Positions 427 to 53,860 of a DNA stretch of 64,000 nt are shown here, one piece after another. This stretch comes from Portulaca oleracea. Taxonomy: Eukaryota > Streptophyta > Magnoliopsida > Caryophyllales > Portulacaceae. Position numbers and translations under genes: made by a program. The first letter of the stretch is position 1. Every line of letters begins with the position of its first letter. The notes below the pieces were generated by a model. It was not told where the DNA came from. It ran no database searches and was given only the letters and a program-made list of their open reading frames with translations. Location: NCBI GenBank assembly GCA_029582165.1, contig CM055868.1, positions 20,270,391 to 20,334,390 of the forward strand, read 5' to 3'.

Positions 427-578
427 GCCTCACAGATGAGGCAGAGAAGAGGGGCCTCACAGACGAGGCTTGTGATGAATGGCCTCACAGATGAAGCAGA
501 GAAGAGGGGCCTCATAGATGAGGCAGAGAGGAGGTGCCTCATACACGAGGCAGAGAAGAGGGGCCTCACAGACGAGGT
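427..578. repeat. 27-bp tandem array of short palindromes
   Basis: Six copies start at 427, 454, 482, 509, 536 and 563, a period of 27 (once 28). Each copy contains an imperfect palindrome of the form GCCTCA-CAGA-TGAGGC, with variants GCCTCA-TAGA-TGAGGC and GCCTC-ACAGAC-GAGGC. Reading frames across it are shadows of the repeat. The palindrome has the arm and spacer layout seen in the LTRs of the identified retrotransposons, so this may be a piece of another LTR, but no LTR boundary is visible. Confidence 0.85.
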
Positions 579-1717
579 AGAGAAGAACATGACGAATTAC
601 AATGGATATCAAACTCACAAAACCTTAGTACTTCAAGGCTTTGCTACACAACACTTCACCAACATAGTTGGCTACATAATTCACCAAGAACATTTGTTAC
701 ACCTCATCAAAAGTACCTTACTGGCAACATTTATAAAAAAGGATTCATTGGCTACACTCAGAAATCTCACTAGATTTCCTACACTCAATTACTTACTTGG
801 AATCGACTACATCTTCAAGGAGGAAGTTGGTGCCTTTTTGTAGGTCTTGGAAATTCATTAGCAACGGCTATATCTTCTCTTCCAATGGTATTGTTGATTC
901 TTTCCAAGTTTGTATTGATCTTCAATCTTCACTCTTTTTGGAAGCTCCAATCCTTATCTACCAAAATATAATCTGCAAAGTATGCACAAAAAATAAGTCT
1001 ATATAATTTTGAATATATGCTGAGATTATTTAAGAGATTTTCCAGATACTTCCCTAATTTTTTGGTCTTTCAAACAAAACTCTCTAGACATGGCTGAGGT
1101 CCTCAACTACAGTAGTGTTGAGGGCATCACAGTTTCTACAAAAAAAACTAATGGTGGAGTGCCTCAGGGTAAATGGGCGCATGATGCTCCATGTACCCGG
1201 GAGCACCATTGTCCAGCTGTTCTTTTGGTCATTTGACAACATGTATTTACAGTCACTTCCATTCAATTGGACTAACTTTATCTACCTACAACAACGTATA
1301 TCAACCTGCATTTACCCAGACCAATCTACACCAACTTGCACATACTATCACTCAATCAAAAAATTAATTATCTTAATAAATATCAACATTTACAAATTCA
1401 TTAATTTTTTTTATCTCAATTAGTAATATTTGCATATGATTTATAAAACTAAATATTCATGTAAATTTTTAAATTAAAATTAATTTGATATATCAAAAAA
1501 ATTAAATTAGAAGGATAACCAAATTAACTTAATATGAATTGTCAACATGAGAAAATGAGCGAATATTGATTGCGTCATCCTCACAAGGAGGGTAACAATG
1601 TTAGGATTGTCAGAAAATTAGTTATTTTAATTTAATAATAAGTTTAATTTTTTATTTAAATTTAATTTTTATTTTGGTTTACTTTTGGTTGGTCATTTTT
1701 CTCAAATTATTTGAAAG

Positions 1718-2041
1718 TAGTTATCAGAAAAAAAAAATTATTGTGAAGTCGAGTTAGTCAATTTAATTGAAAAGCCTTGTCAATTTCCTAGAAGTTGTTG
1801 ACACGTGTGTGGTAACACAGTTATTTACATACATTGCTTTTATTTTATTTTTCTTCCCATTGTATTGTGTGCTTATCTCTTTATATAAACCATATGTGGG
1901 TTTTTAAACAAAATTGGTTATTTGCAAATTGCTGAAATTTGTTATTGAAAAAAAAACAATGTAAAGGAGAATTAGTCTTTTAGTTAAAAACTATTTTCCA
2001 AGTTCCTAGAACTTGTTGACACTCATATGGTAAACAACTAT
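1718..2041. repeat. diverged direct duplication, two copies
   Basis: The stretch 1718-1825 recurs in diverged form at 1939-2041. Shared landmarks in order are an A-rich run, 'gttagtc/attagtc', 'caatttcctagaa/caagttcctagaa', 'gttgttgacac/cttgttgacac' and 'tggtaa'. No function is apparent. Confidence 0.6.
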
Positions 2042-2176
2042 TATGAATATAATTTTTATATTATTTGTATGAAATGCATATTATGAATATGTTTTTTTTA
2101 TTTATTTTCTCAATTTTATACATAATTATAAAAACTCATAATAATTGTAAATTTTAATATGTAATTATATAAAGAC

Positions 2177-2926: not shown

Positions 2927-2932
2927 AGTTTT

Positions 2933-3051: not shown

Positions 3052-4099
3052 ATGCAAAAAGACTTCTCTTTCGACTTCGACCCTGAGATCGAACGCACAT
3101 TGCGAGAGAGAAGGAAGAGCACAAGACTGGAGAATGAACAACAAGAACAACGAAAAGAACAAGAGGAACAAGCTAAAAGCGAAAGAGAAGAGATAGCTGA
3201 GCCACAACGAACGCTAGGGCAATATGTGACACCCAATGTCACTAATCCACAATCAGCTATTGCAGTCCATGTAGTTGCAGCACATGACTTCGAGCTACGA
3301 CAGTCACTGATCCATTTGGTGTCCAAGGCACCGTTTTATCGGCTGCTGAGCAAAGATCCAAATTGACATCTGCAACTTTTTCGCCAAGCTTGTGACACTT
3401 TAAAGGCCAACAATGTTTTTAGAAGATGCAATCAAACTGAGGTTCTTCCCGTTATCTTTAAAAGGCAAAGCATGGGAGTGGCTTGATTCTCTCTCGCCTG
3501 ATTCAATCACCACATTCGACGAACTTGCCAGCATGTTCTTGGCGAAATATTTTCCTCCTAGCAAGCTCACTAACTTGAGGAACCAGATTTCGACGTTCAT
3601 CCAAGAACCTGACAAGACACTTTATGATGCTTGGGAAAGATTTAAGGATATTCTTCGACAATGTCCTCACCACGGATTCGAACCTTGGGTTCCAATCCAA
3701 TCATTCTTCAATGGAGCAAACGAATCGACAAGAGGAAGCATCCTCTCAGCAGTCGAAGGAGATCTTATGGACAAGACTGTGCCCCAACTTACAAACTTGA
3801 TTGAGCAATTAGCGAACAACTCGTATCAGTGGTCCAAACCCCGCCACAGAGCGGGAGGTAAGCTAAATGTTGATGCTATTACCTTATTGTCTTCTAAGCT
3901 TGATACTTTGACACAGAAAATGGATCGATGGAGCTCACTTTCTAGCCCTTCGACATGTAATACTTGTCAGTCGACCGAGCATGAGACTTTTACTTGTCCC
4001 TCAGGTGGAATTAGTAATGAACAGATCCAGAAAGCCAACTACGTTGGCAACCAATGGCAAAATTACGATAGAATTCTAATACCTATCATCCTGGACTAA
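3052..4099 (+). pseudogene. gag: Athila A gag (broken)
   Basis: Capsid-type Gag of an Athila retrotransposon. The start is placed at the ATG at 3052 because the next residues (FDPEIERT) mirror the gag start of element C (FDPEFERT). The retrotransposon gag domain spans 3425-3850, with FFPLSLKGKAWEWLDSL, FLAKYFPPSK, YDAWERFKDILRQCPHHG and the usual order of helices. A zinc knuckle of CX2CX4HX4C form (CNTC...H...C) lies near 3957-3998. The frame is broken by a TGA at 3364 and by a frameshift in the T-run at 3413-3420. The C-terminal basic tail runs into a further frame change near 4099. Confidence 0.88.
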
Positions 4100-6246: not shown

Positions 6247-6325
6247 TGCTCGTTCTCGTTCCGAGCCGAATTAATATCATTTTATAAGGTGTTTTGTTTG
6301 TTTTAGCCCCTTAATTATATATTAG
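6247..6325 (+). repeat. 5' LTR of B, first fragment
   Basis: Matches 26436-26517 of the 3' LTR (shared landmark CGAGCCGAATTAATATC). It begins TG. The 3' LTR begins TA at the aligned position, apparently a point change. The fragment ends in attag, which is duplicated at 17153-17157 by the insertion of N. Confidence 0.9.
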
Positions 6326-7859
6326 TGTAGACGCTGAATTTTGTTATTCAATTTAGCTTTGTAAATATTGTAATTTATTTTATTTTTTTTTAGAATAATT
6401 TAGGAAAATGCCAAGATTTTTGAAATACAAAAAAGATGAAGAAATGAAGGAAAACCCCCAAAAAATCATCACAAAAAGGCCCAACCCAAATAACCCAATC
6501 TGAACCCTACACGCAGCCCAAGGCGCAGCTGTAGTGCAAGTCTGGGTACATCTGGCCTTCATACCTGGCGGTATGCAGTCGGTATGCAGACCAATCGCAT
6601 CTGCATGCCTCGGGAAGCGTGCGATTAAACTCCTCGGTGCCCAAAGATCCGGCAGGTATTCTGTCGGGTCAGGCCGGGTTGCCTTGGTAAATGTACTGAC
6701 CTCGGGAAGCATGCAATTGGGCTTTTCTCAGACCTAGCATACCGCCAGGTATATTGGTGGGTCAGACCGGACCCAGTTTGCCTTGGGAAACGCGTTGACT
6801 TAGGAAACGTGCTGTTGGACAGCCTGCAAATCCACCATGCCTGTAGGTATTGCGGCTGCTACCCTATTCTTTTAACCTAATTTCTACCCCGTTTTTTCAC
6901 CTATAAATACCCAATCCCATTCCATTCATCTTTACACCAAAATCACCCTAGCGTATTGATACTAGGTGATTTTTTCTCTTCGCCCTCCTTCATTTCATTC
7001 ATTTGCATCAACGTACTTGGCATTTTAATTTCTTCTTCTCTCCTTCTCTCTCTTCACGCTATTGTATTGAACATGATTAAATAATAAACTCGGCCAATTC
7101 AACGTTCAATGCTTGTAAATGTAAGTTGTACATATTCTTTATCTCGTTCTTTATTTATTTATTTCTCGCATTTAATATTGCATGTGTATGTTACTAAATA
7201 ATATGAATTACACTAATTTCGTTAAACGGGCGAATTCGAGAATTTTTATTCTCGATTTCATAACCTTACCCCCGGATCCGAATCTCATGGTTCGTGGTTT
7301 GTGGAGTTACAAATTTCTCTTTTCTGGGATTCATTTTCGGATTTTAGAATACAGAAAAACTGGGTTTCGTCAGTCTTAAAGTGCATTTGCAGTTGTTTTT
7401 GCAGAATTCTGAACCCGAGACTGGCAAAATACCTGGCGGTATGCATGCCAGTGCCCGGGTTCGGATCTAGCTCACAGATCCAGAAGTCCGTCTCGAGGCC
7501 CGGATCGGCAGAATACCTGGCGGTATTCTAGACCGTCTCGTGGCTCGGACTGGACTTCCTGATTCGGAAGAAATTCCCGGGCCACTGATTGGCAGAATAC
7601 CTTCAGGTATTAGCCCAACCAGTGATCTCGGATTCTCGGGACGAACCTCGAGCCTTTCTGTCCTTTTTTTCTGTCTTCTTTTCTAATTAATTAAATTTCA
7701 TATTTCTAACTTTTTTTTTTATAAGAAAAAAGAGTTTACTTAAGTTTTAATTTTAGTTTATTTAACAGAGATTCAAGCAAATCTTCTCAAAGAAAAGACA
7801 CCACTTTCGACTCGCCGTTTACCGCGAGGGACATAACGGGGATTTTCCCGGGTCCCACA
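6326..7859 (+). repeat. 5' LTR of N
   Basis: Starts TGTAGACGCTG and ends GGTCCCACA. Contains copies of the palindrome ATACC-N4-GGTAT at 6560-6575, 6739-6752, 7429-7442, 7511-7528 and 7595-7611. The first two sit upstream of the TATA box. It also carries the conserved inverted repeat TCGAGAAT...ATTCTCGA near 7235-7256, which recurs in the LTR of D. It is shorter than the 3' LTR by two gaps, after about 7210 and near 7312. Confidence 0.9.
6902..6908 (+). promoter_or_regulatory. TATA box in 5' LTR of N
   Basis: CTATAAATACCC followed by a pyrimidine-rich start region is a textbook plant TATA context. In the 3' LTR the same place reads CCAATAAATACCC (near 16060), so that copy has probably lost the box. 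Confidence 0.7.
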
Positions 7860-7861
7860 AA

Positions 7862-13069: not shown

Positions 13070-13490
13070 CATGCCGGCAGGCATGACAGCCTACCTAGGG
13101 TTCCAAGCAACAAGTGAAATCAGGATGACCGACACCACCCTAGACAGAGTTGCATCCCTGGAGGCATGACAACCTGACTGAGCTCAAATCTGGCAAGACT
13201 GTGCAGAAAAACAAAGAAAACTGGGTAGAGCTGCATGCCTGGAGGCATGACAGCCTAACTAGATCCAAATATGACGAAACTGTGCAGAAAAACAAAGAAA
13301 GTTGGGCCAGTTGCTTGCACGAGGCATATGACCTCATTAGACCCAAATCACTTAAACTGTAGAAAAACAAAGAAAGCTGGACAGAGTTGCATGCCTGGAA
13401 GCATGACAGCCTGACTAGACCCGAATTGGGCAAGACGGTGCAGAAAAGCAAACAAAATTGGACAGAGCACCATGCTTGCAGGCATGCCAG
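13070..13490 (+). repeat. ~80-bp tandem array with palindromes in N
   Basis: The palindrome CATGCC-N4-GGCATG starts at 13070, 13153, 13234, 13390 and 13471, with a degraded copy near 13313, giving a period of about 80 bp. Centres differ (GGCA, TGGA, TGCA) while the arms are kept. The units also share 'tgcagaaaaacaaag'. Confidence 0.8.
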
Positions 13491-13808
13491 CCTGCCTAGT
13501 ATATCGAACAGAAAAAATCATACCTGGAGGAAAAGAGGACTTCTGTGCCATACCTCTCTCTGGAAAATAAATAAATTAAATTCTGAAGAGGAGTGTGGTG
13601 CGTCAATAAGTAAAATTTTCAAAAGAAATATGAATATTCACATGCTTGGAAGATGTATTAATGTAATGGAGGAAGAGACAAACTCATAACAGGCTCTACT
13701 TTCAAGAGAAATATGAACATTCATATACTCAGAAAATATTCTAGAATTGGAACACACATTTTGATGTAATCCCAGTCTGCACACTAGGGGCTAGCATTGT
13801 TATATTCT

Positions 13809-14429
13809 GCCGGTCGTCGGGCGTTAATAATACGATGTACATTCAGCCGCTCATCGGGAGTTAATAGTCCGATGTCAATCCAGGCGGTCATCGGGCGTTA
13901 ATAATACGATGTCAATCCAGCCGGTCATCGGCCGTTTATAGTATGATGTCAATTTTGTCGGTCGTCGGTGTTAATAATACGATGTCAATTCAGCCGGTCA
14001 TCGGGCGTTAATAGTACGATGTCAATCCAGCCGGTCATCGAGCGTTTATAGTACGATGTCAATTCAGCCAGTTCGTCGGGCGTTTATAGTACGATGTCAA
14101 TTCAGCCGGTCATCGGGCATTAATAGTATGATGTCAATTCAGTCGGTCGTCGGGCGTTAATAATACAATGTCAATTCAGCTGGTCATCGGGCGTTTATAG
14201 TACGATGTCAATTCAGCCGGTCGTCGGGCGTTAATAATACGATGTCAATTCAGCCGGTCATCGTGCGTTTATAGTACAATGTCAATTCAGCCGGTCATCG
14301 GGCGTTTATAGTACGATGTCAAGTTAGCCGGTCATCAGGCGTTTATAGTACGATGTCAATTCAGCCGGTCATCGGGCGTTAATAATACGATGTCAATTCA
14401 GCTGGTCGTTGGGCATTTATAATACGATG
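13809..14429 (+). repeat. 37-bp minisatellite in the 3' UTR of N
   Basis: About 17 tandem copies of a 37-bp unit (landmarks CCGGTCATCGGGCGTT, then AATACGATGTCAATTCAG). Copies alternate between 'gttaataatacg' and 'gtttatagtacg' variants. It lies about 220 bp upstream of the purine tract. Tandem arrays in this place are a known feature of Tat/Ogre 3' UTRs and a known source of plant satellites. Confidence 0.92.
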
Positions 14430-14653: not shown

Positions 14654-14665
14654 AAAGTGGGGGCT
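14654..14665 (+). promoter_or_regulatory. polypurine tract of N
   Basis: 'AAAGTGGGGGCT' is a typical plus-strand primer for Ty3/gypsy LTR elements. The 3' LTR should start just after it, but LINE G follows instead. Confidence 0.7.
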
Positions 14666-15522: not shown

Positions 15523-17152
15523 TTTTTAGCTTTGTAAATATTGTAATTTATTTTATGTTTTTTTTAGAATAATTTAAGGAAAAGGCCAAGATTTTTGAAA
15601 TGCAAAAAAGATGAAGAAATGAAGGAAAAACCCTAAAAAATCACCAGAAAAAGGCCCAACCCAAATAACCCAATCCCAGACCTGCGCGCCCAAGGCGCGA
15701 TGCAGTACAAATCTGGTACATCGGCCTTCATACTGCAGCGGTATGCAGGTCTGCGCCTCGGAGCGTGCGGTCGGTCCTCGGGCCCGGCCTCTTGGCGGGT
15801 ATTACGCCGGGTCGGTAGGTTGCCTTGGGAAACGTGCTGACCTCGGGAAGCAGGCCCACCTCGGGAAGCGTGCAATTGGGCTTTTCTCAGACCCAGCATA
15901 CCGCCAGGTATATTGGTGGGTCAGACCCGACCCGTTTGCCTTGGGAAACGCGCTGACCTAGGGAAACGCGCTGCTGGACAGCCTCCAAAGCCCACCATGC
16001 ATGCAGGTATTGCGGCTGCTACCTTATTCTTTTAACCTAATTTCTACCCCGTGTTTTCACCAATAAATACCCCATCCCATTCCATTCGTCTTTACACCAA
16101 AATCACCCTAGCATATAGACACTAGGTGATTTTTTCTCTTCTCCCTCCTTCATTTCATTCATTTGCATCAACGTACTTGGCATTTTAATTTCTTCTTCTC
16201 TTCTTCTCTCTCTTCACATTATTGTATTGAACATGATTAAATAATAAACTCGGCCAATTCAACGTTCAATGCTTGTAAATGTAAGTTGTACATATTCTTT
16301 ATCTCGTTCTCTATTTATTTATTTCTCGCATTTAATATTGCATTTGTATGTTACTAAATAATATGAATTACACTAATAAATTCTCAATCTATACTCTTCT
16401 TTCTTTTTTTCTTTAATTAACCAGTTTAGTAGAGTTCGTTCGTTGAACGGGAGAATTCGAGAATTTTTATTCTCGATTTCGTAACCTTACCCCCGGATCA
16501 GAATCTCATGGTTCATGGTTTGTGGAGTCACTAATTTCAAGTTTATTAATTCTCTTGTAAAAATTAATTGGCGACTCTTCTTTTCTTCCTCTTTTTATTT
16601 TATTTTATTTCTCTTTTTTCGGATTCATTTTCGGATTTCAGAATACCGAAAAACTGGGTTTTGTCAGTCTTAAAGTGCATTTGCAGTTGTTTTTGCAGAA
16701 TTTCTGAACCCGAGACTGGCACAATACCTGGCGGTATGCATGCCAGTGCCCGGGTTCGGATCTGGCTCCCAGATCCGGAAGTCCGTCTCGAGGCCCGGAT
16801 CGGCAGAATACCTAGCGGTATTCTAGACCGGTCCCGTGGCTTAGACAGGACTTCCTGGTTCGGAAGAAATTCTCGGGCCACTGACTGCCAGAATACCTCC
16901 AGGTATTAGCCCAATCAGTGATCTCGGATTCTCGGGACGAACCTCGAGCCTTTTTGTCCTTTTTTTTCTGTCTTCTTTTCTGATTAATTAAATTTCACAT
17001 TTCTAACTTTTTTATAAGAAAAAAGAGTTTACTTAAGTTTTAATTTTAGTTTATTTAAGGGAGATTCAAGCAAATCTTCTCAATGAAAAGACACCCCTTT
17101 CGACTCGCCATTTACCGTGAGGAACATATCGGGGATTTTCCCAGGTCCCACA
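15523..17152 (+). repeat. 3' LTR of N (start missing)
   Basis: Aligns with 6351-7859 of the 5' LTR from 'ttagctttgtaaatattg' onward and ends GGTCCCACA. Palindromes ATACC-N4-GGTAT lie at 15898-15911, 16724-16737, 16806-16823 and 16891-16906. It is longer than the 5' LTR because of segments near 16375-16440 and 16530-16615 that the 5' copy lacks. Confidence 0.9.
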
Positions 17153-17157
17153 ATTAG

Positions 17158-18424
17158 TTATGATGATTTTGTGTTTTGTAGGATAATAATGTGTTAGATC
17201 CAAAACCGAGACAAAAGTGGAAAAACTGAACAATAATGCCAGACAGACGGGCGTCGCGCCCGAGTCACTAGGGTCGCGCCCGTGACACGCCTCTGTGGCG
17301 TCAGTGCAACAGCTAGAAAAGGGTCACGCCCGTGACCTGGGAGTCGCGCCTGCGACATAATGCGGAGGAAGAAAATGCTTGCGGACAGATCTCGGTCGAT
17401 AGAAGCGTCTCACCCGCGACCACGGAGGGCTGTTTAACGAAGGAACCAGATCAAGGTCCTGCCCGAGACACATATGTGTCACGCCCGTGAAGACGGTGAA
17501 GATGAAACTTCGAAAATTGGTCGTGCCCGCTACAGATTTCTTCACGCCCACCACGGTTTCAAGCAAGGAATGACGAATGTTAGGCAAAAGAGGGTCCCGC
17601 CCGGGACCCTGTCTGTCACGCCCGTGACATCTGCCAGTTCTGAAAATAACATGCGGTGGCTGCTAGGGTTTCAGGTGGTGTTTTTTTTTAAATTTCTTTT
17701 CCCTTTTTCTTTTCTATAAAAAACTTATTATATGTTCATTAGAGGTCTTAGTTTTTACTTAGTTAGTTTTTAGTTAGCATTAGTTTACTTAGGTTTTAGG
17801 ATGGAGTTTTCTTAAGTTTCCCTAGCCTTCAATTGTAATTCAACCTTTTTAGATTAATGCAAGTGATTAATTCTTTAAAGTTCTTGCTCTTTTTTGCTTT
17901 CTTGTATTTTCAATTTCATTAGTATTAGTTGCACAAAATTCCACTTTTTAGTAAAGCGGAGGATTAAGGTTCCTCAAATTCTCCCTTTAGGTGAGGATTC
18001 GAGCAGTCTTAGTAATCCAAATCACGCCCTTTCTTGTTTGTTCAAGAGAAAGATCGGTGATTCAAGATTGAAAAGAACAGAAGATCGATGGAAAGAATTC
18101 TTCATTCAGTAATGTTTTCTGATATCAATTCAGTAATTAGTTTAGTCTTTACTTTCAAATTTTTAATTACTTTCTTGATTCTGTTCTTGATTTCTAGTTT
18201 AGTTTCTTGTTCTTGTTCTAGTAGTTAGATTTAGTTTTATTTCCCAATTCATGTTTTCTTAGTTTGAATTCCTAATTAATTTAGTTTAATTATAATTAGT
18301 TTAAATTATTTACTGCTTCCTGCATATTGAAAACCTTTTGAAACCAATTTCCTGAAAACCTAACACACCCTCCCTGTGGATATGACTACCCCTAATTTTT
18401 ACCCCAAATTTCTACAACCGAACG
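17158..18424 (+). repeat. 5' LTR of B, second fragment
   Basis: Aligns along its length with 26518-27752. It holds a palindrome cluster at 17253-17628 built on GTCGC-GCCC-GCGAC, with variants GTCAC-GCCC-GTGAC and GTCCC-GCCC-GGGAC. A TATA-like TATAAAAAAC lies at 17715, and a pyrimidine-rich downstream half follows. It ends 'ctacaaccgaacg' just before the PBS. Confidence 0.9.
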
Positions 18425-26435: not shown

Positions 26436-27752
26436 TATTCGGTCTCATTTCGAGCCGAATTAATATCATTTTATAAGGTGTTTTGCTTGTTTTAGCCCCT
26501 TAATTATATATTAGTTATGATGATTTTGTGTTTTGTAGGATAATAATGTGTTAGAGACAACACCGAGACAAAAGTGGAAAAACTGAGCAAAAATGCCAGA
26601 CAGACGGGCGTCGCACCCGAGTCACTGGGGTCGCGCCCGTGACACGCCTCTGTGGCGTCAGCGCAGCAACCAGAAAAGGGTCGCGCCCGCGACATAATGC
26701 GGAGGAAGAAAATGCTTGCGGACAGATGTCGGTCGCGCCCGTGACAGAAGCGTTGCACCCGCGACCACGGAGGGTTGTTTAATGAAGGAACCAGATCAAG
26801 GTCCCGCCCGAGACACGTATGTGTCACGCCCGCAAAGACGGTGAAGACGAAACTCCGAGAATCGGTCGCGCCCGCTACAGATGTCTTCACGCTCGCCACG
26901 GTTTCAAGCAAGGAATGATGAATGTTGGGCAGAAGAGGGTCGCGCCCGCGACCCTGTCTGTCACGCCCGCGACATCTGCCAGTTCCGAAAATAACGTGCA
27001 GCGGCTGCTAGGGTTTCGGGTGGTGTTTTTTTTTATTATTTCTTTTCCCTTTTTCTTTTTTATAAAAAACTTATTATATTTTCATTAGAGATCTTAGTTT
27101 TTACTTTGTTTTTAGTTAGCATTAGTTTACTTAGGTTTTAGAATGGAGTTTTCTTAAGTTTCCCTAGCCTTCAATTGTAATTCAACCTTTTTAGATTAAT
27201 GCAAGTGATTAATTCTTCGAAGTTCTTGCTCTCTTTTGCTTTCTTGTATTTTCAATTTCATTAGTATTAGTTCCACAAAATTCCACTTTTTAGTGAAGCA
27301 GAGGATTAAGGTTCCTTAAATTCTCCCTTTAGGTGAGGATTCGAGCAGTCTTAGTAATCCACATTACGCCCTTTCTCGTTTGTTCGGGAGAAAGATCGGT
27401 GATTCAAGATTCAAAAGAAGAGAAGCTCGATGGAAAGAATTCTTCATTCAGTAATGTTTTCTGGTTTCAATTCAGTAATTAGTTTAGTCTTTACTTTCAA
27501 ATTTTTTAATTACTTTCTTGATTCTGTTCTTGATTTTTAGTTTAGTTTCTTGTTCTTGTTCTAGTAGTTAGGTTTTGTTTTATTCTCCAATTCATATTTT
27601 CTTAGTTTGAATTCCTAATTAGTTTAGTTTAAATTATTTACTACTTTCTGCATATTGAAAAACTTTCCAAACCAATTTCTTGAAAACCTAACACACCATT
27701 CCTTTGGATACGACTACCCCTATTTTTTGCCCCAAATTTCTACAACCGAACA
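26436..27752 (+). repeat. 3' LTR of B
   Basis: Starts at the end of the purine tract and ends 'ctacaaccgaaca'. Palindromes lie between 26610 and 26973, and TATAAAAAAC at 27061. Compared with the 5' LTR it differs by small substitutions and by loss of one palindrome unit near 26680. One palindrome (26939-26952) differs from its partner at two symmetric positions. Confidence 0.92.
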
Positions 27753-31546: not shown

Positions 31547-31891
31547 ACCGTGGCCACGATCACCTTAACCGTAGCCACGGTGTAATTGAGCCAATGCCCG
31601 AGGAAGGAGACTTTGCAACCCGAGATGTACCGTGGTCATGGTCACCTTGACCGTAGCCACGGTGAGATCCTTGTCCTACCCCAGGAAGCAGCTGGCCGAA
31701 CAAGACCGTGGCCACGGTCTCCCATGACCGTAGCCACGGCGGTGCGAAGGAGCGAAGAGTTGCCAACCCTAAATCGCCTACACTGTGCCCACGGTGCCTG
31801 GGTACCGTACCCACGGTACTGCGAAGCGAAGATGAATTTTTCCTACCTTACACAAGACCGTGGCCACGGTCACCTTAACCGTGCCCACGGT
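31547..31891. repeat. five palindrome pairs in the 5' LTR of C
   Basis: The 14-bp unit is ACCGT-N4-ACGGT, perfect as ACCGTGGCCACGGT. Unit starts are 31547/31568, 31629/31650, 31705/31727, 31782/31804 and 31857/31878, so paired centres are 21, 21, 22, 22 and 21 bp apart. Centres vary (GGCC, AGCC, GCCC, GTCA, ACCC). The cluster ends 64 bp before the TATA-like box. The 3' LTR keeps the pairs with a few changes. Confidence 0.95.
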
Positions 31892-38085: not shown

Positions 38086-38817
38086 AAAGCATCGGGATAG
38101 GTCGAGCTAGGACCTACAAAAACAAGCACTCGGGAGAGGTATGACTTACTTCCCCTTCTTTTAGTGTTTTCTTTCATTTTCTTCCATTTTATTTCCCTTG
38201 TTTTAGCATTTTTTTATTTTCCTTGGTGATTATTGAAAAATATGAGAAAATAAAGAGAAAATAGAAAAATTAGAAGAACTGAAAAAAAAAAAGAAAAGAT
38301 TGAAAAGAAGCGAAAAAAATCGAGAGCGAGAGTAAAAATAAAGAGAGGTTCTATGAGGTTCTATGAGGGTCGGGATTGGAATGTGATTTTTGAGTGATGG
38401 GAAAGTACCCCTGAATGATAAATTGAGTGAGGACAACAAAGGAGTGGATGATAAGAGAGTAGATTTTAGGACTTAACGTGTTCTTTCCAAGTTTTGAGCC
38501 TTGTAGGTACAATAGCTGGGCTGAAAGGGACCGTGCCCACGGTCAGCTGTACCGTGGCCACGGTCAGATTATGCAAAGCGTCCCCAGTTTCCTCAGGCCG
38601 AAATTTACCGTGACCACGGTGGGCTCCACCGCAACCACGGTCTCATCGCAGCAAGTTCTTGGAAAATTTTCTTCCCGAAGGTCACCGTGATCACGGTGGA
38701 TGTTACCGTAGCCACGGTGACTACCCTGCATTTTCCCCTCTTTTTCCTCAACCCGAGCCACACCGTGCCCACGGTCAAATCGACCGTGACCACGGTGAGT
38801 CGAAACTGCGAACTTTA
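38086..38817 (+). promoter_or_regulatory. C: region between integrase and ORF3, with four palindrome pairs
   Basis: A short post-pol block, then purine-rich sequence (38240-38345), then four palindrome pairs at 38530/38551, 38607/38628, 38684/38705 and 38762/38783. In each pair the centres are exactly 21 bp apart. The 7-bp spacers (cagctgt, gggctcc, ggatgtt, caaatcg) share no sequence. The pairs themselves recur every 77-78 bp. The last ends 21 bp before the ORF3 ATG. The unit is the same ACCGT-N4-ACGGT as in the LTR. A regulatory role is inferred. Confidence 0.85.
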
Positions 38818-39110
38818 ATGGGGCGAGCTAAACGTGCCCGGACCGAGCCGGAACCAACCCTCGTCCCATCAACCTCTGTCGAGCCCGATAAAACCCGGTT
38901 CAAGGGTCAACCGACCTCGATCATTTAATGCGACCCGAAGGTTAAGGTTACCTTCCGGGACGAGATGCACAAGGCGCGGTACGAGAGGCTCAAGAAACGA
39001 AAGATCTGTGCTCCAGACCTCTATCATGAAGAGACGGCAAAGGATATATTTTGTAAACCAAGCATGGATTTCTTCATCAAAACCATGGGTTGGGATATAT
39101 TTGTTTTCTT
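38818..39110 (+). pseudogene. Athila C ORF3 remnant (N-terminus only)
   Basis: Starts MGRAKRARTEPEP, comparable to the MVRT start in A. A TAA after TSII is followed in the same frame by KVTFRDEMHKARYERLKKRKICAPDL, the conserved beginning of Athila third ORFs. The rest of the ~400-residue ORF is missing and the sequence passes into the pre-LTR region. Confidence 0.65.
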
Positions 39111-39145
39111 CGGTTTTCTTTTCACTTTCCCTCTCTCCTTTCTCT

Positions 39146-39250
39146 TTGGCTTTTGTGGGCACAGCCGCTACAAACCCTCACGAGTCCATCTCGCCCACCC
39201 GGGCTGCCGGGGGGTTCAAAGAGCTTGGTGCATACGCTAAATGCACCCGT
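39146..39250 (+). other. conserved non-coding block before the 3' LTR of C
   Basis: Shared with B at 26240-26350: CTTTGGCTTTTGTGGG, CTACAAACCCTCACGAG (TATAAACCC in B), GGGCTGCC, then GCATACGCTAAATGCA. The last part can form a hairpin (GTGCAT/ATGCAC). It is not found in the same place in A. Function unknown. Confidence 0.7.
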
Positions 39251-39337: not shown

Positions 39338-41094
39338 TGTTTAGACCCGATTTTGCGTCTAAATACCACCTAAATCCTTAGGCTTTTGACTTGTCTCGTA
39401 GCTCGTTTTAATAACTTTTAATGCTTTTTGTTTATTTTTGTAGTTTCCGAAGGTTTTACTCAAAACGATGCTAAATGGGTTATTTTTGCACAAATCTTGG
39501 GAATCCCGAGATTCCCTAAGATTCCTTGAGCCCTGGTCGTGTCAAAGGCAGCGGAGACGAAAGGGCCGAGCATGTCGGAAGCGCGGAAACGCAAGTATCT
39601 GGTCGAAGAGCGCCGAAGGGTAGCCCCCGCCACCAACTTCGTAGCGGGCACTACGCCCTGAAGAAAATTGCGGCCGAGATAGACCGTGGCCACGGTCACC
39701 TTGACCGTAGCCACGGTGTAATTGAGCCAATGCCCGAGGAAGGAGACTTTGCAACCCGAGATGTACCGTGGTCACGATCACCTTGACCGTAGCCACGGTG
39801 AGATCCTTGTCCTGCCCCAGGAAGCAGCTGGCCGAACAAGACCGCGGCCACGGTCTCCCATGACCGTAGCCACGGCGGTGCGAAGGAGCGAAGAGTTGCC
39901 AACCCTAAATCGTCTACACCGTGCCGCGTGCACGGTACCGTGCCGCCCACTCTCACGGCGAAGATGAATTTTTCCTGCCTTACGCAAGACCGTGGCCACG
40001 GTCACCTTAACTGTGCCCATGGTCCCCTGCGGGACACGTTTTGTCTATAGCGTTAAATGATGAGTTTTGAGTAACAACCTGAGTTACTATATATTGTTTT
40101 AGGTCATTTTAGCGGGGGTTAATCAGCTTTTACCTAGCTTTTATGATACTTTAGCCTTCTTTTATCACATTTTTAAGCTTTGGATTAGAGATTAAGTGAA
40201 GATCTTTGCTGAGTTTATTGATTCTTGTATTGGATTCTCTCAACTTTTATTTCAAGTTTGAAGATTATTATCATATTTGGAGCATTGAAGCATTTATTAT
40301 TCAGAGTTTTTGCCTCTTTGTCATCAATCAATGAGCATTTCTTAACCTTACTCTCTTCTATTTCATAAGTTTATCTATTAATCTCTGTTTTTACTATTGT
40401 CGCTATTATTGATTTTGTTGATTGTTTGTTATTACCTTGTCTATGTTTTTGAGAATGATTAGAGTTGTTAATGTTAGTATCATGTTAGTTAGGATGTTTA
40501 GTAGCTAGAACCCTAATGGGTTAGGGAGATATTAAGGGTGTGAATGGGTGATTAGGTTTGGGTTAGCAATATTAGTGTGTAACTAGTTAGGAAATCAACT
40601 TCCCTACCCTATCTTTCCCTCAAGTGGGATGTAATTGGGTGCGAAAGCATCCCGAATATATCTAATGCTTGTTGGAAGGTAGGAATTGGGATAGTTAGTG
40701 TTCTAGTTCGCGAAAGCGAATAGAAACTAACTAGGGAATTTCGTTCCATCGACTCCCTGGGTCTGTCTATGGACTTTGGGGAAGTCAATCCGGACTATCC
40801 TTGAAAGAGGAAGCTCGGTTGGTATTTTCCAACGGAGTTACCATTTGATTTCCCCTTCTCGTTACTCTCTTGCTACGAAACCCATTTCCTTATCCCCGTT
40901 TGCATCCCGAAAGTCTCCCGACACCCATTGTCTCACCTTTTTGACCGAACCTAGTGTGTTTGTGCTGTTTTACCCCAAAAATCTATCACCCTTTCTTGAT
41001 CCTAAACCCTACCTAGAGTCAAGTAAGTGCTGTTTTCCCGAAGCTCCCTGTGGAAGAACGATATTACCGAGGTCTTACAAACCGCTGTTGAGCA
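39338..41094 (+). repeat. 3' LTR of C
   Basis: Aligns end to end with 31207-32975, with scattered substitutions and small indels. One lies near 40117, where the 5' copy has 11 extra bases. Another is a scrambled patch at 39917-39955, where one palindrome pair is damaged. The end reads CTGTTGAGCA against CTGTACAACA in the 5' copy. Confidence 0.95.
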
Positions 41095-41099
41095 ACTGG

Positions 41100-42366
41100 T
41101 CAACCTGAATCTTAAAGTCTCAGATTTCATTAAGAATGACAGAACCTGGGACGTGGATTTGCTAAATTCCTTGGTTAATCCTCGTTCTATTGAATTAATT
41201 AAAGCGGCCCCTATCCCCCACACTCATGCGGCGAACGAGTGTTGTTGGGGTCTCTCTAGCACTAGGGCCTTCACCACTAAATCCGCAACCTGGCTGACTC
41301 ATAGTGTCAATCCTGATACTCAACCCTGGCAATTCCATTGGATTTGGAATCTTAATATTCAACCAAAGCTAAAAACTTTCCTATGGTTAATCTGCCATAA
41401 AGCCCTCCCTACTAAATGTGCATTGGCTGAAAGGGGAGTGAATTTGGATACTACTTGCCCCGCCTGTAACTTGGCTCCTGAGGACCAAGACCATATTTTT
41501 CTTCGATGTCCCCATTCCCAAAAATCTTTGGATGTTGCTTCCATCTCAAGATGGTTTCAACGCAACCAGATATGTGATGATACCACGATCTTGACTTACA
41601 TTTCCCACTATAGATCCAGTTCTAACGAAAAGCATTTAACTAATTTAGTATCACTCTTATGGAGTATCTGGAAATCCCGTAATGAGCTCATCTTCAAAAA
41701 CCACCTCACTAGACCGGAAGCAATTTTTATCAAAGCTAAAAGTAACAGCCTGGAATGGCTCATATGGAACCAGTTGGACGAAACTGCAGCTTATTACTGC
41801 TACACTCCGGAGGTCCATCACCGCTCCCCAAGCTCTCGTTGGGTAACTTGGTCTCTCCCCCCGACGGATTTTGCTAAGTTAAACTTTGTGGAGCAAAATC
41901 ATCTTCTAATGCTTCTCGCGGGTTTATCATAAGAAACGCTAGGGGTCAAGCCATCTCCTGCTCATCCTTCAATCTGGGTAATGTGTCCCTCCTTGTTGCT
42001 GAAGCCATAGCTATGCGAAACGACATCCTCGAAGCGACGACTTGTGGTAGTAATAATATCATTATCGAAGGAGACAACAAAATTGTCATCAATGCTGTAA
42101 ATGGTGATTGTGAGCCCCCATGGTCCATCAAAAAGCTTGTTGAAGACATTCAAGCCCTCCTCGCTTCCTTCAACACGGTCACTATCAACCATATCTTTAG
42201 AGAAGCAAATCGTGCTGCGGACTGGTTGGCGAAAAAAGGCCTTGTAAGATTAAGATTTCTTTTGTTGAGTGGAAATGAGTCCAACGAGCTTGAGAAAATT
42301 CTGTTTGAGGATAGGAATGGCTTGTACCTTGAGAGAAGGGTTTCCTAGTCCTCTCTATCTTACCCT

Positions 42367-46837: not shown

Positions 46838-47854
46838 TGATAAGTACATTATTATTTTATAGTAATTTTTAGGGCTCAAACACATGTATTTCATGTTTTT
46901 TATACCCGGAATTCCATGTTTTTATACCAATTTTCCATGATTTCTTCACTTGGTTGCGAGATTGGTACATTTTGTAGGGATCATTCAAATACACCTAACA
47001 GCATGAAGAATTGGAGGAAAAAGGGAGAAAAATGAGAAGAAATTAAAAAGAAAGTTGAAGGAGAAGGAAAATAAAAGGGAGGAATGGCCCAAGCTGCAAG
47101 GCCCGGCTCAAATTTTGGGCGGATGACGCAGACGCTACTACCCCCCCTGGACACTGCCAGCGCCCTTGGCAGAGACTTCTTATGTGTAAGAAAACTCTGG
47201 ACGCTGCCGGAGTGGATTTGAACGCTGCCAGCGTGCGGACACGGAGCACATGATTTTTAAGCCAGACGCTGTCAGCGCCTGGCGCCTTATTCGAGCCTTA
47301 TAAAAGAATTATTCAGCGGCCGTTTAGAGGAGGGGCATCAAGAGATCGAGAGATCTTATTTTAAAGTAGATTTTTAGAGAGCTTTTCAGATCAAGAACAC
47401 TTCTTATTTTCTTAAGAGTTTCTTTCATTAAAGTTTAGTTCTTCAGGATTATTAGTAGTTTGAGATTATTGTAAAGTGATTGAAGAGAAGAAGAAGATCC
47501 ATTCAGGTGACACGAAGAGATCGATTCCGCCCCTTTAAGCACTCGATTACTTCTATTTTCTTTATGCTTTTCAGTTTTAATTTAGTTTGTGTGTTGTTAA
47601 TTTCTAGTATTGTGAGTGGCTAAATACCTTTGTTTGGGAGATAAACACAATGTCCTTCGATTGATTTTGAATACAACCTCGGTGTGAAGTTATTTTTAAT
47701 CGTTTAATTTGGTTAACTGCCTTTTGCTTGATTTAGATTCTTAATATCAGAACAAAAGTTTGTTCATTAAAATTAGGCTAAATAATGTAATACAATAGTC
47801 CAGTACATGGGCTAAATAATGTGGAGTAGCACCAAAACATTAGAATTAGGCTTA
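46838..47854 (+). repeat. 3' LTR of A (tail lost or displaced)
   Basis: Starts TGATAAGTACATT. Palindromic units ACGCT-GCC-AGCGT and relatives start at 47132, 47151, 47200, 47221 and 47265. A TATA box, TATAAAAG, lies at 47298, 21 bp after the last unit. The LTR can be followed to the Tourist-like MITE at 47855. The expected end (cctatca, as at 2926) is not seen before the LINE zone, so the right border is unresolved. Confidence 0.75.
47298..47305 (+). promoter_or_regulatory. TATA box in 3' LTR of A
   Basis: 'TATAAAAG' preceded by GC-rich palindromic sequence and followed by an AG-rich leader. Good plant TATA context. Confidence 0.65.
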
Positions 47855-48360: not shown

Positions 48361-48956
48361 TTTTTTTTTTGTACAAAAAAACAGGTTATATTAAACAATC
48401 AAGTGTTCCGTACAAAAGGGTGGGGAAAGGAAACCCCGAGTTCACATACTAAGTACATTGTCTACAAGATTCGCGTACTTTTTCCTAAATTTTGCTATGA
48501 GTAGGACTTTGTTGATTACATCATTTTTTACATTTTTTGAAATTACCTGTGGCGCAACTCCATTCTTTTTATGGACACGGTTGTTTCTTTCAATCCAGAT
48601 GTGGTAGACATACGCAGTGAGGAAAGCACAATTCAGCTGCGCTTCTTTACTGTTTTTCCGAAGTTCGCCCAATTGGTTTCTCCAATCCTGAATGGTGGGT
48701 ATATGTCTAAGCCCACAGGCTCTCATTTCTTGCCTCACCTCTTTCCCAAAAGAGCACTCAAGGAAATGGTGATCGATTGTTTCAGCCTCCAAATTGCATA
48801 ATGGGCAATTGGGATCTCCTCCAGGCTTCCATCGCATCGTCCTTGCTCTTACAGGGAGCCTGCCGTGGAAGAGGACCCAGCTAATGAAGGCATGCCGTGG
48901 GATTGAAAGTGGGTTCCAAATGATTGAGGCCCATCCAACCTCGTTCGTAGTTCCAA
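48360..48956 (-). mobile_element. LINE H, 5'-truncated L1 fragment (minus strand)
   Basis: Poly(T) on the + strand (48361-48370) marks its 3' end. The truncated 5' end meets a (CA)n(TA)n run at 48961-49005. The minus-strand frame (stop near 48442) encodes the zf-RVT domain: WNPLSIPRHAFISWVLFHGRLPVRART, then CPLCNLEAETIDHHFLEC, then YHIWIERNNRVHKKN. No RNase H follows, unlike LINEs F and G, so it belongs to a different L1 subgroup. Confidence 0.85.
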
Positions 48957-48960
48957 GGCT

Positions 48961-48961
48961 C

Positions 48962-49005
<44 letters not shown>
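48961..49005. repeat. (CA)n(TA)n microsatellite between LINE H and LINE I
   Basis: About 8 CA units followed by about 15 TA units. It borders the truncated end of LINE H and the beginning of LINE I. Confidence 0.95.
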
Positions 49006-49010
<5 letters not shown>

Positions 49011-49227
49011 AAATGCCCTAGAGTACTGAACTATGGGGTGATCGTGGAGCAAAAGGAAAGCCGCAAAATCATCGAAGAAATCAAGATTTTCGAGGAATTT
49101 TACATCTCCGGAGGTATAGGTTTCGAATTCTGCGCAATCAGAGGAGTGTTTTGATACCAGAAGTGAAACCTTTTCTGCCTAAAATGGGGAGCATTATGAA
49201 TCTTCGTCTTACCCTCTTCGTATCACA

Positions 49228-49689: not shown

Positions 49690-50830
49690 TGTAGACACCG
49701 GATTTTGTACCGGGACGAGTGTACAAATCAGGAGCAACAAGAAAGAGGCTAGAAGGAAAGATAAGCCACTGGGTCTCCATCAATCAAAAGTTATCGAACC
49801 AAGTACCATCAACTAATACCATCATTCTACCCAAACTCTCGTCATTCTCATACTCTCTTAAAACTCTCATTATTCTCATATTACCAACCCCTACTCTATC
49901 AAAAGCATCACTCATATACTATCCTACTGCCATTCTCACATTCACCCTTCCAATCCTCAAGTCAAGGCAAAGTCAAGGATTCTAAACCAGCACATTCGGG
50001 CTCCTAAATCAAAAGAGGTTCGATTCATTGCTTTCTTATTGTCATTGTTTAAATCATGTAATTCGTTCTTTAATTTCGTTATTTGTACATATTTTGTAAA
50101 TCAAAAACCTTTCTTTATATTGCATGTTAAGAATATAATTTTGCAGAATCAATTAAACTTCTCCCTGCTCTTTTTCATTTTAATGTCGATTCTAGTAAAG
50201 TCTGTTTTCTAACAAGTGAATTCGAGAATTCTTATAAACCTCAAATTCGTAACCTTACCCCCGGACTTAGAATCGGGTTTCGTAGACCGGAGTTATTTTT
50301 ATTATTTTTATGGTTTGTCGGTTTCCTTAAATCGCTTGACGACTCTTTTATTCTTATTATAATTCGTTTAATTATTTAACATTTGAATTTACACTAAAAT
50401 AATTTAAAAATGGTTTAACATCTTCCTCTCACCCAATTCAAGGTTAAAACCGAGAGAAAGTGGGTCAGGAATCGATAAAACCCATGCGGGTTTTATTGTT
50501 TCCGACACCCTTTCTCTGGCCCAGGGAAACAGGCGGCCCGGCCCAAGGTTTGGCAAAACCCGCGCGGGTTTTGGCAGGCTATGGGGGCCCACCTGCTTCT
50601 TATTGGGCCTGAATTTGGTGTTTGGGCCGGTTTTAAACCATTATTAATATATTTCGGTGTAATTTCAAGTATTTAAATAATAAAAAACAAATTTGTAAAA
50701 TAAATAAACTTTCATCACCCCGAAAATGAATTTTGAAAACAAAAATATCCTTATTTAAGGATTAAGCAACCTTAGTCGGCTCCCGATCATTAAGTAGTGC
50801 ATCCGAACAATTTCTCTGCCGGGTCCTACA
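49690..50830 (+). repeat. 5' LTR of D
   Basis: Contains the lineage motif GAATTCGAGAATTC...TCGTAACCTTACCCCCGGA (50219-50265), shared in diverged form with N. Two strong palindromes are present. The first, at 50475-50496, has arms ATAAAACCC and GGGTTTTAT around ATGC. The second, at 50554-50573, is CAAAACCCGCGCGGGTTTTG. No clear TATA box. Confidence 0.88.
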
Positions 50831-50833
50831 GAT

Positions 50834-50852
50834 TGGCGACTCCACTGGGGAC
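50834..50852 (+). promoter_or_regulatory. primer binding site of D (tRNA-Arg type)
   Basis: 'TGGCGACTCCACTGGGGAC', identical to the PBS of N, 3 bp after the LTR. Confidence 0.78.
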
Positions 50853-52590
50853 TTAAACTTAAAAAGAGGGTAAGCTTGAACAAATCGAATTAATTTGAAA
50901 TTGTAAAAGGGAGAAGTTGATTTATTTCGTGATTTTATATTTCTTGTTAGGCATCCTTTGCATACCGAGCCATTAATCGCGTCTTTTGACACGTTAGCAC
51001 AAAGGCGACGATTAGGTTATACCTAGGTGATTCCCTCGAGAGCAGGCGGGCCACTACTTGTGGGATGCACCCTACATCGCCAAGCATTTGGTCCCCTCTC
51101 TCCCCGCGTTACACTCAAATGGCTTCCTTGAAGTTCTTTGAGCAATACCTTACACTCCTTACCTAAGGGTATAGAGCACGGAGATGAAAATGTGCGGTAG
51201 GCCATGTAATCCAACCATAGAAAAATCCATGAACATAGAACATTGGTTTAGGGTATCCCCTCATGTTGTATGCTATGTGCTAGGTGCTACCCCCTTCCCT
51301 TTTTTTCTCTTGTTTTAGAGTCGACTCTAGTTTAGAGGTTTTATTCTAGTCCATATAAAATTCATTGGGTTGAGAAAATGATTATTTATTAATTAGAATA
51401 ATTGACTCAAAAAGCATCATGGTTAGCCCAAGTGGAAGGGCTCATTTATGCTCGAAAGATGATTATTTTGATTAATAAATAAAAATCGACTCGCATTTAA
51501 TGATATTATATGCCCCTTTACAAGATTCTCCTAACGAGGGTCCAAAAAATTAATTAAAAAGTCCAACAAAGTTAATGGATAGCGTTTTAGATTGCATAAT
51601 AGTCACCAAGCTCGAGAAAATTAGTTTGTCGATTTAATTAATAAATCTACCGCATTTATGGTCAACCGTTGTTAGGCCCAACCATATTGGACTTGTCAAT
51701 TAAACCCATAAATTAATTATAACTCGCTTATTGTTGGTTTTATCCAGTCCTTTACAATATCCGTTTTTCTTGAGTAAATAAATAAAGCTTGTTGTTTGCT
51801 ATGTGTAAATACGTGTCTGTATGTTGGGTCTTCATTAAAGTCGGACCTATTTTGAGATATTGTTTTAGTCCGCGTAATAATCGTTGGGTTTGAGAAAAAA
51901 TAAGTTTATAAACTCGATTAACCTTAAACGGTCGGCCCGGTGGTGAGGCCCATCCATTTTAAAGTTAATTGTCCTTGTTTATCGATTCATTTTAACTCAC
52001 CTTTGATGATTTTATTCGGCCCTTCTCAATATTTTCTTACTCATGGTCCAAAGAATATTGACTAATAATAAACAAAGTCAGTGTGTGTTGTTCTAGCCCG
52101 TGTAATAGTCTCAAGGTTAGAGAAGATAAATTCATAAAATTGATCATTAAGTCTAACAAATCCATGGTCGGCCCGTTGTTAAGCCCATCCATGGTGGAAT
52201 TAGTAATTGAGTTTATAAGTTTGTTTTGACTCACCTTTTGACGGCTTTATTTGGTCCTTTACAACATCCACTTTCCATGAGTTAAATAAATAAATGTGTT
52301 GCGTCAAAAAAAAAAAGATAAAAAACGGGTCGTCAGTTTTGTCGAGAATTATCCTAGTCCGCATAATAGCCAATAAAGCTCGAGTTGTCTGAGTTGTTGG
52401 GCCAAGTTACGGATTCTCCTTAAAACGGTCGACCTGTGGATTAGGCCCATCCGAATTGAGAAACACTGACTTGTGCTTTCCAACTTATGTCGACTCGCTA
52501 TATTTGACTTTATCCGGCCCTTTATGATGCTCTTGTTGTAAAAAAGTGTTGTTGAGTTGCTACATGAGTATGTATAGGTGTCTTACATGT
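50853..52590 (+). repeat. D: leader with imperfect ~240-270-bp repeats
   Basis: From about 51330 a unit recurs in diverged form. It contains 'tagtccgcgtaatagtc', 'ggtcggcccg', 'aggcccatcca', 'gactcacctttga' and 'ggccctttacaa'. The 'gtcggcccg' landmark lies near 51661 (diverged), 51930, 52167 and 52429. No gene. Confidence 0.7.
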
Positions 52591-53860
52591 TAGGAGGTAT
52601 CATATATGGTCTAGTAAACCCAGTTCATAGATGAGTCTTTGTTTCAGAGTCTTCATGTAAATATCTTTCAGTCTTTAGAAAGTCTCATACAAGGTCGTGT
52701 CATAAGTGAATCTTTTCTTAAGTCAATATGTGTGTTTTGTTTTTGAAAGTCTAAACCCGGGTCATGGGTGAGTCTTTAGTCTAGGTCATAAGTGGATCTT
52801 TTCCTGGGTTAATGTGTGTTTGTCTCTTTTAGAAAGTCCAGCGTAAACCCAGGTCATGGGTGAGTCTTTGTCAGGATATGAGTGTCTTTTTCTTTAGAAA
52901 GCATCATATAAGGTCAGGATGGGTCTTTGTGTTAGTGTCTGCATATAAGTGTCTTGCATTCTTTAGAAAGTCTCATATAGATTCATAAGTCATGTAAACT
53001 CATGTCATGGGTGAGTCATTTTCCAGAGTCAACGTATGAATGTCCTGCATTATAGAAGTCTCCTATAGGGTCTAAGTCGTGCAAACCCATGCCATGAGTC
53101 AGTCGTTGAGTCGTTTCTTGAGTTAGTGTATAACTGTCTATCATTCTTAGAAATTCTCATATAAGGTCTAAGTCATGGGCAAGTCTGTGTCTAGAGTCAT
53201 CATGTAAATATCTGTCTTTTTTAGAAGTCTAGGGTAAACCCATGTCGTAGGTTAGTCTTTCCGGGTCAGCATATAGGCAATTGCACTTTAGGAAGTCTCA
53301 TATAGGACATATAGACCCATGTCATGGGTAAGTCTTTTCCTTGTGTCGGCATATAGCAGTCTTGCATCCTAGGAAGTCCCATATAGATCGGTTAGCTCTT
53401 TGAAACCCATGTCCTGGGTAAGTGTCTTCCGGGTCAGCATATAGGCATTTGCACTTTAGGAGGTCTCATATAGAATATGTAGACCCATGTCGTGGGTAAG
53501 TCTTTTCCTTGTCTCGGCATATAGCAGTCTTGCATCCTAGGAAGTCCCATATAGATCGGTTAGCTCTTTCAAACCCATGTCCTGGGTGAGTCTCTCCCAA
53601 GTCAGCATATAGGCATTTGCACTTTAGGAAGTCCCATATAGAATTTAGGTATGTAGTCTGATGTCGTACGTAAGTCTTTTCCTTAAGTCGGCATATAGCA
53701 GTCTTGCATCCTAGGAAGTCTCATCTATATCAATTAGCACTTTCAAGCCCATATCCTAGGTGAGTCTCTCCTGCGTCAGCATATAGGCTTTTTTTTCATT
53801 TCAGGAAGTCCATATAGGTCATTTAGGTCACGCATGCTCTGGGATGGGTTTTTCTTCATT
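52591..53860 (+). repeat. D: ~170-bp repeats carrying a palindrome
   Basis: The block 'tcggcatatagcagtcttgc' recurs at 53346, 53514 and 53688 (168 and 174 bp apart), with older diverged copies from 52600. More than ten copies of ACCCAT-GTC-ATGGGT or variants occur, for example at 53315-53329 in perfect form. 'GTCTCATATAG' words lie between them. No coding frame. Confidence 0.82.

Follow-up and report, generated by a model that had tools for sequence, protein, structure and literature searches.

Ty1/copia elements of the Sirevirus genus carry repeated motifs (RMs), described as element-specific palindromes upstream of the TATA box and before env and called Sirevirus-specific; in the available parts of that account, a shared binding site for any single factor was not identified (PMC2829016, Bousios et al. 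2010). Here we analyzed 64,000 nt of Portulaca oleracea DNA (CM055868.1, hereafter the window), in which unrelated families of long terminal repeat (LTR) retrotransposons bear short multi-copy palindromes. By analogy, the RMs are the closest precedent for these palindromes, closer than the VANC system to which an earlier note on this DNA had likened them without considering the RMs. The words concerned are A (ACGCT-N3-AGCGT), B (GTCGC-N4-GCGAC), C (ACCGT-N4-ACGGT), N (ATACC-N4-GGTAT, with the interior form CATGCC-N4-GGCATG), D (AAAACCC-N4-GGGTTTT, with the interior form ACCCAT-N3-ATGGGT) and GCCTCA-N4-TGAGGC in an array at 427-578; a further word, E, comes from a random genome block outside the window (K1, loci L024-L027; a second block, K2, comprises L028-L031). 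From the sequence, we lean towards the reading that the palindromes of words A, B, C and E serve as enhancer sites within the promoters of the LTRs, bound by trans-acting protein dimers that most likely belong to a host family.

Like the RMs, the palindromes studied here are multi-copy dyads with CpG within words. They cluster upstream of the LTR TATA box in A, B and C (21-88 bp), as do only half of the 5'-LTR copies in N, and extra copies precede an env-like open reading frame (ORF), here in C only (L022 and L101); no palindrome copies were found in the B interior. Unlike the RMs, which belong to Ty1/copia, these palindromes reside in gypsy elements with an Asp-type (Athila-like) or Arg-type (Tat-like) primer-binding site (PBS) as well as in copia elements. 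All but one of the RMs have a CGG-CCG core, which is absent from words A, B, E, N and D, whereas word C has CCG and CGG in the reverse order. The C half-site GACCG also occurs, in the opposite orientation, in the Sirevirus Osr10 and Osr8 motifs (CGGTC-N-GACCG), and pairs of motifs of this type 2-25 bp apart numbered 0 in the Portulaca genome. The two-turn phasing and the purine rule described below are not found in the available parts of the RM account (PMC2829016).

Three other systems show partial likeness. The analogy with VANDAL elements and their VANC proteins is a possible one, since VANDAL motifs are also short, multiplied in non-coding regions and different between related elements; however, VANDALs are DNA transposons with an element-encoded binder, whereas the present hosts are LTR elements in which ORF3 is only a candidate, and the VANDAL motifs, of 8-9 bases, are not called palindromic in the available text (Hosaka et al. 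2017, PMC5735166). The BII boxes of Tnt1 are likewise repeated LTR promoter boxes and bind host factors, but Tnt1 is a single copia family, for which the parts available describe no palindromic doublets (PMC3316501). The antisense ORFs of Retand TRP28 encode a predicted DNA-binding protein in Tat-type elements, often with repeat arrays, but no palindrome is tied to it in the accessible portion of that report (PMC11963269). As far as the accessible text of the open-licence PMC literature goes, no description of palindromes of this type in Athila or Tat elements was found, and the word 'palindrome' is absent from the sunflower papers PMC12844716 and PMC11728184, from PMC1838419 and from the VANC study PMC5735166.

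A shared grammar of half-site, purine and helical spacing

All palindromes named by the earlier note were confirmed at their positions in the window, with 1 exact copy of A, 3 of B, 17 of C, 9 of N, 2 of N interior, 3 of D, 1 of D interior and 2 in the 427-578 array. Their description as multi-copy holds for exact copies of C, N, B and D, whereas A, with three further copies near its single exact one, and the interior motifs are multi-copy only at 1-2 mismatches. The shuffled control suggested by that note also came out in its favor: palindrome pairs with the same non-simple 5-bp arm within 130 bp numbered 36 in the window, 4 in K1 and 5 in K2 (low-complexity arms excluded; one site may count under two overlapping arms), against means of 0.05, 0.2 and 0.05 in 20 dinucleotide shuffles each, with a maximum of 1. 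We further scanned the 1.13-Gb genome for exact same-word pairs, taking as control for each word the reversed (backward) pattern, which is a fair one because it is a palindrome of equal composition. Indeed, pairs far outnumbered their controls for A (60 versus 0), B (965 versus 0), C (4664 versus 1) and E (6929 versus 0), as did pairs of N 66-96 bp apart (828 versus 5). These data indicate that the palindromes are real and far above chance, and support the recurrence of short multi-copy palindromes across unrelated LTR families of the window.

Words A, B, C and E share one grammar, in which a five-letter half-site is followed by a purine, the centre measures 3-4 bp, and copies are paired 19-22 bp apart, about two helical turns. 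Start-to-start spacings were counted in the first 50 pairs listed per word, with allowed ranges of 17-34 bp for C, 16-39 bp for B and 15-38 bp for both A and E. Spacing was 20-22 bp in all 50 pairs of C; 20-22 bp in 45, 31-32 bp in 4 and 38 bp in 1 of B; 19-22 bp in 46, 26 bp in 1 and 30-31 bp in 3 of A; and 20-21 bp in 49 and 33 bp in 1 of E. Each arm is followed on its inner side by a purine when read on its own strand, so that the centre begins with a purine and ends with a pyrimidine, in 70/71 sites of B, 141/141 of C and 62/62 of E (31 distinct pair sequences). For A the figure was 43/43 in the sampled loci and 93/100 in the open listing, the latter being the fair one because the A loci had been picked with a fixed GCC centre. 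In C, the purines at the centre edges are retained even where they are unable to pair (45/141). The centres of N, such as TGGC and GCCA, do not obey this rule, and N copies lie 72-95 bp apart in the 50 pairs listed of 828.

The spacers within pairs keep their length and, in B, little else. Of 26 B pairs, 23 have seven-base spacers; all 23 are distinct, with a mean identity of 0.26 and, in the best orientation, 0.40 versus 0.37 for random sequences. C spacers are partly alike, 32 of 52 being distinct (best orientation 0.52 versus 0.34 random). B also shows phasing over longer distances. With 36-66 bp allowed, the 50 pairs listed of 484 fell at 38 bp (1 pair), 42-43 bp (6), 50-55 bp (33), 59-61 bp (3) and 63-66 bp (7), and none of them at 44-49 or 56-58 bp, so that these wider spacings gather around 4, 5 and 6 turns; a Rayleigh test at 10.5 bp gave p 8e-11, and R under a uniform null was at most 0.49 over periods of 9.5-11.5 bp. 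Together with the 20-22 and 31-32 bp classes, B distances deviate from multiples of 10.5 bp by 0.68 bp on average, compared with 2.6 bp for a uniform distribution. In 20 sampled B loci and the window LTRs, 30 longer gaps gave R 0.69 (p 8e-7, or 0.057 with each distance counted once). Our claim is thus limited to two-turn pairing in the words A, B, C and E, with additional phasing only in B.

Conservation was examined in C, within a sample of 60 loci, 20 each for words B, C and A. In an alignment of the two C LTRs of the window with 15 loci, identity was 0.90 in the arms, 0.88 in the centres, 0.74 in the in-pair spacers and 0.76 in other columns. Against the window 5' LTR, 14 C loci differed at 138/1217 arm sites and 1215/4074 other sites; in contrast, the two LTRs of the window C element differed from each other at 15/100 arm sites and 25/321 other sites (p 7e-6 for the contrast). 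The between-loci bias persisted without the exact pairs used for picking the loci (122/797 arm versus 1150/3757 other sites, p 4e-6). From this count L057 was excluded although aligned, and L064, L065, L067, L068 and L073 of the 20 C loci were not entered; the B locus L049 was also tried for the alignment, and no orientation was obtained. Arms thus diverge little between C loci and are not spared within the LTR pair, which argues that they are maintained as long as a lineage replicates and are free to decay after insertion. Mismatches were compared in 30 oriented sequences, the 60 loci supplying 25 of these. Single mismatches of the G-U and A-C types stood at 13:28 in C, 1:2 in A and 6:3 in B, the B count leaving out 10 A-C cases that are GTAGC-like sites, another word. 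There is no overall wobble preference, mainly from the C data.

LTR copies lie for the most part upstream of the TATA box, and the earlier note had placed those of A, B, C and N just upstream of it. This is correct for A, B and C, whose copies end 21, 87-88 and 65 bp, respectively, upstream of a TATA-like box. On the + strand, the A copies (47151..47278; at 47151, 47201, 47222 and 47266, 0-2 mismatches) precede a TATA at 47299; the B dyads and their variants stand in pairs at 17253/17273, 17323/17343 and 17594/17615 in the 5' LTR (17253..17628, TATA 17715) and at 26610/26630, 26732/26752 and 26939/26960 in the 3' LTR (26610..26973, TATA 27061); and C has five doublets with 0-1 mismatch and 21-22 bp within each doublet in the 5' LTR (31547..31891, TATA 31956) and further dyads in the 3' LTR (39683..40023, TATA 40088). 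The description fails for N, since in its 5' LTR (6352..7860, +) 3 of 6 copies (6561, 6739 and 6837, the last with one mismatch) lie upstream of the TATA at 6902, and the other 3 (7429, 7513 and 7597, 84 bp apart) start 527-695 bp downstream of it. No match to the TATA pattern was found beside the D copies.

Proposed binding in trans and competing explanations

The earlier note regarded the palindromes as private to their families, which the sampled loci do not confirm. Exact copies of words A, B and C are mixed in 12/60 loci (8 A+B, 4 B+C), and A and N in 1/60, where chance would give about 0.0008 per word and locus; words are interleaved in L046, L053, L057 and L088. Word A occurs in both gypsy and copia LTRs. 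Both copia LTRs of the pair L003/L004 contain it (633 bp, 90.7% identical, copia-type gag), whose PBS we take to be of the initiator-Met type, and in L001, where it stands upstream of a TATA-like box and is followed on the same strand by matches to Pol_BBD and a zinc knuckle; no PBS was found in L001. L098 links to the B LTR end, and L097 and L099 link weakly to copia loci. L082 was set aside, its A palindromes seemingly lying past the end of a Tat-like LTR. With word A in two superfamilies, a private binder is a hard explanation, and together with the mixed loci this points to a binder acting in trans. Distant Athila families have been reported to recombine (PMC2410132), which can account for word mixing within gypsy, not across superfamilies.

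A further word, GTAGC-N4-GCTAC, differs from B by one base. In 6 loci, representing 5 places, it is present as doublets, and single copies are found in many C loci; 15 of its 17 perfect copies in the 30 oriented sequences are in C loci. In each of the two C LTRs of the window, the C cluster is preceded upstream by a lone GTAGC-CCCC-GCCAC site (31489; 39620). In addition, a series of B copies in the 3-kb locus L019 (G000:C1 near 11920927) is followed some 700 bp later by a C series at 75-bp steps.

Based on this sequence evidence, we infer protein dimers, cooperativity, activation and a host origin of the binder. Each palindrome would serve, in its double-stranded form, as the site of one protein dimer, whose subunits would each read the five specific bases and the purine of a half-site. 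With the spacing held close to two turns, or close to 3-6 turns in B, dimers on neighboring palindromes would share a face of the helix and be able to contact each other, and the paired dimers would drive the TATA box, which lies some 20-200 bp further downstream. In trans, the binder would act on unrelated elements; these may rely on a limited set of related dimeric factors, most likely from a diversified family of the host, and may switch words by altering both arms. DNA dimer sites are favored over RNA hairpins or duplication debris because of the free sequence and locked length of the B spacers, the helical spacing and the conservation of the arms.

Several results weigh against this proposal. 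Outside its five-turn peak, the long-range phasing of B is no stronger than p = 0.03 (n = 17). The B list is also fitted slightly better by 11.6 bp than by 10.5 bp as the period (R 0.72 versus 0.68). Past the doublet, phasing is weak in C (p 2e-4 for all gaps, 0.91 for distinct values) and was not seen in A, and the genome-wide count of N pairs at short range (21 bp), 7 versus 0 for the control, gives no support to such pairing in that word. The wobble count of B, taken alone, leans the opposite way from the overall result. The C conservation test has a single LTR pair as its within-element sample and loci chosen by an exact pair; genome-wide counts are not independent, as related loci share ancestry; and mixed words within an 800-bp piece could partly come from nested insertions. 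CpG transitions in the LTR pairs affected 5/25 arm CpGs versus 17/69 elsewhere in C, and 4/16 versus 17/46 in B. This similar decay inside and outside the arms gives no sign of methylation protection, an idea we rejected because the arms are not clearly lower than elsewhere. Finally, a trans-acting protein encoded by one element could also be hijacked by others.

Whether words N and D belong to the same system is evenly balanced. In the proposal above they would be a second and looser class, with copies about 80 bp apart and perhaps a different factor; alternatively, they would have nothing to do with the doublet words and would be regulatory or structural units, built as tandem repeats, of Tat-type elements. 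Such a separate nature agrees with the wide spacing of N, its lack of 21-bp pairing and of the purine rule, and with the Arg-type PBS found in N, in D and likewise in a K2 element bearing a D-class motif. However, the dyad symmetry is common to N and D too, and in the 5' LTR of N every second copy, 3 of 6, does lie upstream of the TATA box.

The main rival as to the binder, though clearly less probable, is that it is VANC-like and encoded by the elements. In this case Athila ORF3 (PF20167/PF03078), a putative nuclear protein, would bind its own palindromes in the LTRs and before its gene, activating or un-silencing the element, and other elements would hijack it. The earlier note had seen no candidate binder encoded in these elements, which no longer stands: the C sibling L101 has an intact 489-aa stop-to-stop ORF (L101:520-1989) right after its interior palindrome cluster, and the first 309 aa of C ORF3, scanned in L022, match PF20167 (3e-14) and PF03078 (4.7e-5), the only ATHILA ORF match among elements A, B and C. 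A protein search with C ORF3 gave 988 candidates, none at E <= 0.001. In the window, four 21-bp C doublets with 0-1 mismatch (38530..38796, +) lie between the integrase-type pol and an ORF3 remnant (38819..39237, +), a copy without some 557 bp of the ORF3 present in L022 (gap at 38811-38818). Between the remnant and L022, the three codon positions differ at 2, 20 and 9 of 95 sites, a pattern that points to coding sequence, and C ORF3 contains an acidic run as well as two basic stretches. According to the available text of the VANC study, an unrelated element likewise contains VANC6 motifs (PMC5735166), so that word sharing is compatible with an element-encoded binder. On the other side, all five ORFs of at least 120 aa in L027, from the Ty1/copia host of word E, match gag or pol domains, leaving no extra ORF of this size. 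C ORF3 had no tblastn match below 1e-3 in the window B and A elements. Its heptad-like C-terminus scores 0.72, within the shuffled range (mean 0.53, maximum 0.78), and no DNA-binding domain was identified in it. A variant that we consider somewhat more doubtful is that one dimeric protein family, with different words and a shared purine contact and two-turn spacing, serves unrelated copia and gypsy elements alike as their promoter-activating or anti-silencing factor, Athila-like ORF3 being the factor that the others exploit. A host factor remains the favored candidate for the binder of A, B, C and E.

It is improbable that the palindromes act as RNA hairpins, for instance as small-RNA templates or packaging signals, as proposed for the palindromes of maize Sireviruses. 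Sirevirus LTR palindromes are reported, in the accessible part of that work, as hotspots of small-RNA mapping (PMC5311732); the 3'-LTR and interior copies here would be present in the transcript, and the B mismatches are those that a hairpin tolerates more often than not (G-U 6, A-C 3). However, mismatches in C and A run the other way, the centre-edge purines of C are kept where pairing is impossible, B spacing matches the helix of duplex DNA, and the 5'-LTR copies of B and C in U3 lie upstream of the TATA box. Least probable is a by-product of tandem duplication, the palindromes being leftovers of a short unit copied head to tail: the 427-578 array and the D interior do resemble simple tandem repeats in which the spacers are conserved, there is partial likeness among C spacers, and some B triples repeat a spacer, but B spacers are unrelated at a fixed length and C loci conserve arms, not spacers (0.90 versus 0.74), by which this reading is largely refuted for B and C.

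Elements of the window and what the palindromes may mean

LTR pairs were located by self-comparison of the window. B and C are gypsy elements because B has RVT_1, a gypsy-type RNase H and a weak rve match, and the gag of C matches Retrotrans_gag/Ty3_capsid (Ty3-type). The A copies apparently lie in the 3' LTR of a truncated element, 80% identical to B over 1.2 kb in the self-comparison and classed with B on this ground. Asp-type PBSs are found in B (18426) and C (32979) and Arg-type PBSs in N (7862) and D (50834); the tRNA names of these types and their link to lineages (Asp to Athila-like, Arg to Tat-like) are our assumption. The GCCTCA-N4-TGAGGC array (427..578, strand not assigned) has 6 copies with 0-2 mismatches and a 27-28 bp period, its spacers being mostly conserved. 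It lies about 2.35 kb upstream of an Asp-type PBS at 2933 and may be inside the LTR of a further Athila-like element, which has this PBS and a gag at 3404-4096.

N is inserted in the B 5' LTR, with its right edge at 17153 and, on its left, about 77 bp (6250-6327) that match sequence from the starting part of the B 3' LTR. Its interior cluster of CATGCC-N4-GGCATG-like copies (13070..13486, +) comprises 5 copies with at most 1 mismatch, 81-83 or 156 bp apart, and its 3' LTR (15525..17153, +) has exact copies at 15898, 16724, 16808 and 16893. Directly before this LTR, an ORF of 325 aa (14514-15491) encodes an RNase H (RVT_3) domain; no such domain was seen in the three D ORFs scanned. D copies stand 78 bp apart in both the 5' LTR (50477..50572, +) and the 3' LTR (58708..58803, +, 0-1 mismatch), and the D interior series of ACCCAT-N3-ATGGGT-like copies (52755..53587, +) comprises 9 copies, each with no more than 2 mismatches and 77-153 bp from the next, within a larger tandem repeat. 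The interiors of N and D also hold minisatellites of 37 bp (13740-14506), 20 bp (56469-56728) and about 52 bp (57187-57589). LINE-type remnants with endonuclease, RVT_1 and zf-RVT ORFs are present at 59850-62027, 41027-41932 and 48445-49017.

Our results extend palindromic LTR motifs from one copia genus to gypsy and further copia elements. They also add a physical rule, a half-site plus a purine at helical spacing, which predicts a protein dimer. If ORF3 were the common factor, the LTR words would make a fast-changing key-and-lock system. The old question of what activates high-copy LTR elements in plants, and whether the activator is shared between unrelated families, thereby becomes testable with short synthetic DNA.

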